Assembly (NCBI GenBank): GCA_000827265.1
Contig: KN834849.1
Location: 73,085-137,084, forward strand
DNA from: Collybiopsis luxurians FD-317 M1
Lineage: Eukaryota; Basidiomycota; Agaricomycetes; Agaricales; Omphalotaceae
DNA: 64,000 nt
Direction: 5' to 3'
Below, piece by piece: positions 22,970 to 25,853 of this stretch (its first letter is position 1; every line of letters begins with the position of its first letter). The position numbers and the translations under genes were made by a program. The notes under the pieces are model-generated. The model saw only the letters and a list, made by a program, of their open reading frames with translations. It was not told where the DNA came from and did no database searches.

Positions 22970-25853
22970 CTAGGGTATATCAACAGTATTCTCTACCCGC
23001 ATCTTCTTTGGCGGGCGTGAAACGTCCATATACTCTTGGGACCTCTTCAAATCTCCTTCTTGACCAGCAATCATCACCACATCCCGACGTTCATATAAAT
23101 CAGCACTCGACGGTGTAGGCGCCATTCTTGATGATGGCGGCGAAGGAAGTTCTGGTTGGGGATGTTGAGGATGTTGAGGGTACTGAGATGTCGCCTTATT
23201 CGACATTGATGAGCGCCGGGCTCCCCCCTTATCACCTCCTCGGCGATCAGTTACATAGCTACAAGACAGCGACCGGCGCGCACAGCTGGAGCAAGCGGGT
23301 TGAGCACCGTCACATTTTGTTTTTCGGGCTAAATTCGAACCAATGAGTTTTTCATCTCAAAGTCGAGGAACTAACACATTACCTCGGCAAAAGTTGCAGG
23401 CCACTACTTTCGGACCAGAATGAGAAGTTTGTCGCGGAGTTTTCCCAGGAACGGTGGCGGCTCGTTTCCGCTGAGCTTGAGCAGACTGCGGGTCGGTTGC
23501 AGGTCTGATTGGTGGAAGCGACGGAGCAGACATGGGTGGGCCAGGGGTAGATGGGGAAGGATCGGGTAGCGAAAGCGTTGCGATGTGTGGAAGTTCCGTG
23601 TCGTAAATGGAAGATGATCCCATTCCTCGCGATCGAGATGAGGATGGGATATCGCCTCCAGTTATAGGAGGTAGCGCAGCATAATCTCGATGTTCGATTA
23701 GCACAGAATTCCTCCGGGAATGAGGTCTCGAGGTCGCTTGCGGAGAATTAGACTGTACATCGGAAGGTTCATCTCCGCTTTCGCTTTCACTTTCATCCGT
23801 GCGGCGGGGTACGCCTCGTCGACGCTTATTCTGAGGCATATAGTCGCAGGGATTCGAACGCTTGATACATTGCGTGCATGCGGGTCTTCCTCCATCGCAT
23901 TTCAATTTTCGCGCTACGTAAAGGATTTGCTTAGAAATCAAGATGGAAATGTCATCGGAAATTTATCACTTACATCGACAAAAGTTGCATGCCACGGTGA
24001 TCTTTTTTGTTCGTTGCTTGCCGGATCCTTCTATTTTTTTTTCGTTAGCGACACAGAGAAAACAGAGATAAAGACTCACTGGAACCACTGCTTTTGACGG
24101 AGACATTATCAGAAACATTTCTGGATATTGGTACTGAGCGCATGTCTCTTCCGACCGACATGTCTGGAGGAACTGCGAGTCGACTCATAGATCCGGGCGC
24201 CGCAGTGTCTATGGCCAATACTGGCCGGGATGGATGCCCAAGAGACGTCAAGTGAGGGTGTGAGGTTATATGTGGTAACGAATGACGAGAAGTAGGATGC
24301 TGTGGAGGAATCTTATAATCATTCCTGAATTTTTCCAATAAATATTCTCTAGTGTAGTTCTGGAGTGTCTGGGAGGGAAGGGAAAAAAAAAAAAACCATA
24401 TGAGCGGCGTGGAACAATAGAGTTTGACAGGAACCGTTGCTTGTTACCTCCATGTGATGAAATATTGCAGAACGCAGATGGCTAAAGTCACAGTGATTGG
24501 GATCTAGGACGTCAAGACTCCCCCACCGATAACTTCGAGTGAATTTACCCCGGATGAGTTTAGAAGGAAGGTGGTTACTATACTGAGAAGGAGTGTAAGT
24601 TTGGACGAGGTCCGACCTGGACAGCGCCAGTCTCGGTACCCCGTCGCTGTGCGAATATATATCGGGAGAAATGAGCGCATATGGTAACCGCAGCATCGAA
24701 GGCGTATTAGGAGAAGTGGGAGGCGAGTTGGTTGCCGATCCGCTATTCGATTTTACGGTGAATCCATTCGATGGCTCGCTTTTCATCAGGACGAAATCGT
24801 CCTGGTGGGGTTGGTAGGGAGCATCTGTGTCGAAAATGCCAAAACCTATCCCTGCATCTGCGAGGTCACGCCGAACGGCCATCTTGATGGCAGAAATGCG
24901 GTCGTTGGACAAGATATCTGCACGAGCAATCACAGGGAGCACGTTGACCCGAGCGGAAAGACGACGGATACAGTGGATATCTTGGGCGGGAAGAGTGGGT
25001 TTAGTGAGTAGGGGATTGTTTGTCACTGGCGGTTCAAGGATGACCGGTTCTTGGTCCGGCTGTGAGAAGCTATTGGTGCGCGTACGAGAGACGACCGGGG
25101 GAGCGGGCAGTGCAGATATCGTTGGAGGAATTATTTGATCAGGATCCAGAAAGTATACGCAGCTGTTAGAATGGCTATTTCATTAAAGAGGACATTACGG
25201 ATAAATGGAAAACATACAGGTGCACAAGTCGATCCGGATGGTTCCATTCCTAGCATACACCCCACCGATAAGAAACAACGTGAATAACACACTCTGGTGA
25301 GAGAAGATTGGAATAAGCCCTACCGCATCCGCAGCTTCACCTAGCCTGCCTTCAATATATCTTAGAGTTTCGGCAAGGGAGCGTTCAGTTGCAGCGTCAT
25401 CCCTAGAGTCCAAAGAAGGAGTGTCGACCAAAGTCAAAGTGAATTCGCCCCCGCCTTCGGCCTCGATATCTACAGCAATGGAGGCGGTCCTGATGTGAGA
25501 AGTATGGCTGCCAGATCCTTGAACAAACTTTGCGACTGAAGCCAGCTGTTCTTTGGACGCCCGAGAAGAGATATTGCAAGTGTCTAAGAGGAGCCGAAGT
25601 AACGAAGTCTTGCCTGAGGAGACAAAGGGTCAATGACCGTCGGTATTGCTTAAGATGGAAGGGTACGCACCACCTCTGCAGCCAGCTACAAGTATGGAAA
25701 ACTCTGGAGCGGAGATACCTGATGAAAATTGGAGAAAATGAGAGAAAGAAACGCGAAAAGGGAGGGATATTTGGTACCGGGGACACTGCTGGAAGTGGAT
25801 TGAGGGGTAAGTTCACGATTACTTGGCTCAGCAACGGGTACAGCGATGTTCAT
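22970..25853 (-). CDS. Septin-like GTPase fused to two Zn2Cys6 zinc clusters
   Basis: A 798-aa protein from nine exons: 25853-25778, 25718-25671, 25613-25324, 25249-25218, 25162-24448, 24368-24080, 24030-23974, 23913-23383 and 23328-22970. All phases match. Residues 30-400 form a septin-type G domain with P-loop AGCRGGKT (37-44), G3 DTPS (about 105) and G4 ARAD (228-231), plus the septin-unique element WGSLDVLDPNHCDFSHLR (362-379). G3 has Ser instead of Gly and G4 has Arg instead of Lys, so nucleotide handling may be altered. The exon after 24368 encodes the final septin helix (TLQNYTREYLLEKFRNDY) and runs on without a stop into a linker and a zinc cluster (Cys 498-525, CNFCRSRKLKC start). 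A Ser/Pro-rich linker leads to a second cluster (Cys 675-702, CNFCRARKTKC start). The intron after the G domain matches paralogue A in position and phase. The alternative is two adjacent genes, but no stop or second promoter is visible. Confidence 0.75.

Follow-up and report, generated by a model that had tools for sequence, protein, structure and literature searches.

Septins are classed as GTPases of the cytoskeleton with links to membranes, and zinc-cluster transcription factors often oligomerise through a coiled coil. The gene described here joins the two families: it lies on the minus strand, at 25853-22970, of a 64-kb window (the whole stretch of DNA that was analysed) from the agaric Collybiopsis luxurians FD-317 M1 (Omphalotaceae), and it is predicted to encode a septin G domain continued in frame by two Zn2Cys6 clusters. 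The core septins with solved structures (Cdc3, Cdc10, Cdc11 and Cdc12) share the G-domain fold, the P-loop, the septin-unique element and the last helix with the fusion, which, unlike them, lacks the G3 glycine and carries large insertions and C-terminal zinc clusters. GAL4/HAP1-type Zn2Cys6 proteins have the same six-cysteine spacing and base-contact lysine, whereas the fusion has two clusters per protein, placed at the C-terminal end. The Group 5 (AspE-type) septins are likewise non-core, divergent and fungal, with a little-conserved polybasic region and the four septin interface residues; zinc clusters are not mentioned in the available text on them, and the likeness is drawn from these descriptions (PMC6323724, PMC8801916).

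The closest described protein is PoZCP55 of Pleurotus ostreatus, for which a single sentence reports matches to Septin (PF00735) and, towards the C-terminus, two zinc clusters, and which forms a separate clade among the 66 zinc-cluster proteins of that species (PeerJ 2020, PMC7295025). We liken it to the fusion by description alone; its nearest named relative among the matches listed is P0054 from Pleurotus pulmonarius. In the available text PoZCP55 is one entry in a one-species list, with no family, residue analysis or function attached (PMC7295025). In the literature that we searched, in which few subscription journals were covered, we found nothing on the family as such, on how it is conserved or on what it does. 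The architecture is already in print at least once, for one species. The initial annotation, which read this locus as an in-frame fusion and knew of no described septin with zinc clusters, thus keeps its first part, on the strength of conservation, of sequences resembling spliced RNA and of the linker, and loses its second, which was not quite right given PoZCP55.

Rebuilding and translating the gene gave nine exons with matching phases (2397 nt, 798 aa) and eight introns, all GT-AG. A protein search returned a deposited protein, P0001 (GYMLUDRAFT_233731, Collybiopsis luxurians FD-317 M1), of the same length and with 100% identity and coverage. The exon count, phases and coordinates are those first proposed, so the initial annotation had arrived at a deposited model from the sequence alone. 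Pfam scored the 798-aa protein at 95.4 bits for Septin (cut-off 26.2) and, over two stretches, at 69.7 bits for Zn_clus (cut-off 21), and gave no other domain, Fungal_trans being absent. Exon 1 (25778..25853) holds the start codon and a short N-terminus, exon 2 (25671..25718) the first strand and the first half of the P-loop VAGCRGGKTS, and exon 3 (25324..25613) the remaining P-loop, the switch I region and the G3 motif DTPS; exon 4 (25218..25249) precedes exon 5 (24448..25162), with the G4 motif ARAD and the septin-unique element containing R358, W362 and H372. Exon 6 (24080..24368, residues 388-483) bridges the two halves, as had been proposed: it carries the end of the last septin helix, predicted at residues 375-405, and most of the linker, including a conserved motif RPxLxI[DE]T, without a stop. 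After it come exon 7 (23974..24030), encoding KKITVACNFCR and the first half of zinc cluster 1, exon 8 (23383..23913), with the rest of cluster 1, a basic stretch, the inter-cluster linker and the start of cluster 2, and exon 9 (22970..23328), with the remaining cluster 2, the C-terminal tail and the stop.

The same architecture was found widely in other Agaricomycetes, where the initial annotation had suggested looking for it. A homologue search found 229 homologues, 120 of which were listed, and every one of these 120 carries both the Septin and the Zn_clus Pfam domains; the fusion is therefore far beyond chance. Counted by name, the listed homologues span 77 genera, and species look-up confirmed six orders (Agaricales, Russulales, Jaapiales, Atheliales, Polyporales and Boletales), so the range is at least six orders; we take the named homologues to be Agaricomycetes throughout, six species having been looked up.

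Further evidence came from 204 proteins from non-NCBI sources, 25 of which hold the exon-6 helix. Seven of the 25 read in frame into cluster 1, of which six continue across junctions 7|8 and 8|9. Three (P0004, P0015 and P0052) are unbroken from a start at or before the P-loop through the linker and both clusters, and three (P0242, P0251 and P0261) from the last third of the septin domain; the seventh, P0160, seems to run into intron 7. P0052 is 820 aa long and its longest contig measures 2592 nt. Among the other 18, 17 stop soon after exon 6 or run into intron sequence. In fragments such as P0241 and P0245, extra residues stand where the cluster 2 intron sits, a sign that splicing is absent from these sources. 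The six intron-free sequences spanning the join are most simply read as derived from spliced RNA. The eighteenth protein, P0134 (metagenome-type), has the septin helix and a zinc half-cluster close together in one frame, with a different, short linker that lacks the usual motif; it perhaps represents a lineage with a shortened fusion and was not counted among the sequences that span the join. A Volvariella volvacea protein named as a transcription factor (P0022) was not used as cDNA proof either, as its P-loop region looks mis-spliced.

The linker itself is conserved. Residue counts were made on 58 aligned orthologues hand-picked from the 120 listed homologues, an alignment that leaves out merged, truncated and one-cluster models (except P0046) and many near-duplicates. 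Between the septin domain and cluster 1 the block RPxLxIxT stands out, with P436 and I440 present in 58/58, and a pattern search recovered the block in 100/120 of the listed homologues. The initial annotation had named the methionine of MSRLAVPP as a possible separate start for the zinc-cluster part. As a family feature this fails: Met448 occurs in 2/58 orthologues and a histidine stands there in 43/58, while no column between the last helix and cluster 1 has methionine in more than 19/58. Some methionine is present in 52 of the 56 linkers found, and the argument is not the absence of any methionine but the lack of a conserved one; a separate start at Met448 was accordingly rejected. Because the architecture is conserved, relatives yield sequences that resemble spliced RNA and the linker is kept, the in-frame protein with septin domain and double zinc cluster is strongly supported, at the level of sequence, as real and not an accident of gene modelling.

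The alternative is that predictors have merged an adjacent septin gene with a double zinc-cluster gene, and several observations weigh on that side. We infer the RNA origin of the six relatives' sequences from their lack of introns and, for some, from contig size, and P0004 sits on a contig of 5153 nt, roomy enough for introns. Merging of neighbours by gene predictors does occur at this locus: P0018, P0041 and P0078 combine the adjacent zinc-cluster gene ZnA with the fusion, and P0009 combines the fusion with the neighbouring septin B; a deposited Aspergillus AspE model is itself an erroneous fusion according to an author's note (PMC11238149). The 58-row residue counts lean towards clean models. 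At least seven named septin-only models (P0121, P0122, P0123, P0125, P0144, P0198 and P0204) appear among the 120 listed of 290 matches, and six named zinc-side-only models (P0244, P0246, P0266, P0306, P0338 and P0340) among 107 matches; in two genomes the halves are split between neighbouring locus tags (P0122/P0244 and P0123/P0246). The strongest such case is P0306 of Suillus lakei, a zinc-only protein of 244 aa with its own methionine ahead of an intact cluster 1.

The named split models are few, however. The zinc halves P0244, P0246 and P0266 share the start MPQNKRRG, which lies directly past the final cysteine of cluster 1; since P0122 and P0123, on the septin side, stop ahead of this cluster, the split leaves it in neither protein. 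P0340 (Schizopora), which has cluster 2 only, and P0338 (Phellinidium), a partial record, are both incomplete on the septin side. Among the zinc-only models P0306 alone starts with cluster 1 intact, but its cluster 2 is broken, and this protein is perhaps an additional, partial copy of the zinc half of the fusion. The P. ostreatus zinc-cluster gene structures, moreover, were corrected by checking RNA-seq reads (PMC7295025). Against a merging of neighbours there also stand the six intron-free sequences that cross the join and a linker that is conserved without a conserved methionine, and we regard such an artefact as extremely improbable. The extra parts of four other long models (P0062, P0083, P0094 and P0103) gave no clear match to a neighbouring gene when compared with the 64-kb window only.

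The septin half is divergent but recognisable, and the reading of a septin-type G domain with its septin-unique element is borne out by the Pfam score and by conserved residues. The P-loop pattern [AG]xxxxGK[ST] is well kept in the aligned orthologues (A37 54/58, G42 55/58, K43 57/58, T/S44 58/58) and occurs somewhere in the protein in 105/120 of the homologues listed. We dropped the idea that GCRGGKTS is one residue short, since alignment with VVGGQGTGKTS of septin B needs no gap and differs only in an alanine replacing the first glycine. The G4 motif [AG]KxD is mostly ARAD, with arginine in 49, lysine in 5, cysteine in 3 and a gap in 1 of the 58, and its aspartate is kept in 57/58. The G3 motif DxxG, on the other hand, is lost: it reads DTPS/A/T, with the glycine replaced in 58/58, and a pattern search matched 112/120 of the listed homologues, 0 with glycine, the other 8 giving no match. 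This glycine is needed for the usual movement of switch II in Ras-type GTPases. Its replacement makes a working GTP switch less likely, while leaving septin homology unaffected. A septin domain that acts as a true GTP-regulated switch over DNA binding or nuclear entry, in line with the link between GTPase state and DNA binding suggested by the initial annotation, would fit the kept P-loop positions (54-58/58) and G4 aspartate, but the loss of the G3 glycine speaks against an ordinary switch, and we hold this model to be quite unlikely.

The surfaces through which septins assemble appear to be retained. D231 (57/58), R358 (58/58), W362 (58/58) and H372 (53/58) were matched by motif and spacing, not by structure, to D289, R360, W364 and H374 of Cdc3, four interface residues conserved across all septin groups (PMC6323724). 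Together with the fold and the septin-unique element, these residues would suit a protein that is mainly a cytoskeletal or membrane septin, its clusters serving as a passive or RNA- or protein-binding appendage. Only one lysine or arginine is found in the 34 residues ahead of the P-loop, so no polybasic membrane region is evident, although this region is little conserved in Group 3 and Group 5 septins too (PMC6323724).

The zinc clusters argue further against a mere appendage. Both were confirmed in the translation and by Pfam where they had first been placed, at C498-C525 and C675-C702, and both are spaced C-x2-C-x6-C-x6-C-x2-C-x6-C. Each of the 12 cysteines is kept in 57/58 or 58/58 aligned orthologues, as are K505 (58/58) and K682 (57/58), at what we take to be the positions equivalent to the base contact of GAL4 Lys18, and the clusters rank among the best conserved parts of the protein. 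By cysteine pattern, 105 of the 120 listed homologues have two clusters, 3 have three (the models merged with ZnA) and 12 have one; each of these 12 retains one half of the missing cluster, as expected had the intron within it been overlooked. A mainly cytoskeletal or membrane role therefore seems to us unlikely.

Taken together, these features lead us to favour, if only by a little over even odds, a model in which one gene makes one protein, with a divergent septin G domain, a conserved linker and two GAL4-type clusters, acting as an oligomerising nuclear DNA-binding regulator. The septin domain would bind nucleotide but switch and hydrolyse little, if at all, its interfaces would supply the oligomerisation for which zinc-cluster factors often use a coiled coil, and every subunit would present two clusters to DNA. 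Two points weigh against this regulator model. That the protein is nuclear, oligomerises and binds DNA and nucleotide is in each case inferred from sequence, and the structure model, in which the septin G-domain fold is present, is weak for the whole protein (mean predicted local distance difference test score, pLDDT, of 54) and confident at about residues 31-160 and 201-250 only. A more speculative version, which we put forward tentatively, is that the non-switching septin polymerises through the septin interfaces and aligns pairs of zinc clusters along DNA as a scaffold on chromatin or promoters, perhaps with a septin-only splice form as its counterweight.

Such a form could arise at intron 6 (24031..24079, 49 nt), whose retention would add a stop 11 residues past exon 6 and give a septin-only protein of 494 aa. 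Splicing would then set the ratio between this product and the full factor, an arrangement compatible with the favoured regulator model. Most of the 17 intron-bearing fragments from relatives likewise end soon after exon 6, but any retained fungal intron tends to yield a stop, and regulated production of two proteins strikes us as very unlikely.

The gene has an informative neighbourhood. Septin B, an unfused septin-like paralogue (20351..22502, minus strand; 6 exons and 612 aa in a gene model of ours), adjoins it; this protein is divergent, has a large acidic serine-rich insertion and, unlike the fused septin, an intact G3 motif, DSPG. In a tree of five core septins of this genome, 14 fused septins (of the 120 listed) and 2 septin B sequences, in which the core rows are partial and hand-joined and AspE-type septins are outside the sampling, the fused septins form one group and septin B another, both standing together, apart from the core septins, with a support of 100/100. 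The sister of the fused septin domain in this tree is the adjoining septin B. An antisense transcript of Cc.AspE (CC1G_04978) of Coprinopsis cinerea becomes expressed before stipe elongation (PMC4624876); Cc.AspE may be the fusion, septin B or another septin.

On the other side, within 26379..27814 on the minus strand, lies ZnA, a single-cluster Zn2Cys6 gene. An intron interrupts all three clusters of the locus, that of ZnA and both of the fusion, at the same codon and phase; in ZnA it appears to have a GC-AG boundary. Judging by the merged models, other species have these neighbours too. Because septin B is the sister, the cluster intron is common to all three and the neighbours recur elsewhere, the gene probably originated by tandem duplication followed by fusion: a zinc-cluster gene and the septin gene behind it would have been doubled as a pair, side by side, and the septin gene of the first pair would have run into the zinc-cluster gene of the next. 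Outside the window, the same species has a protein with a zinc cluster ahead of a protein kinase domain (P0339, GYMLUDRAFT_46068); its cluster resembles cluster 2 of the fusion, with 53% identity to window positions 23422-23225, as if it had been copied into another chimera. From about 28600 on the plus strand, the window continues with an open frame that presumably encodes a relative of dihydroxy-acid dehydratase.

If the fusion protein does work as a regulator in the nucleus, it would clearly exemplify the recruitment of a septin domain to gene control, in an architecture preserved across at least six orders of these fungi. It would also allow one to ask directly whether the assembly of septins is able to arrange a transcription factor on DNA.
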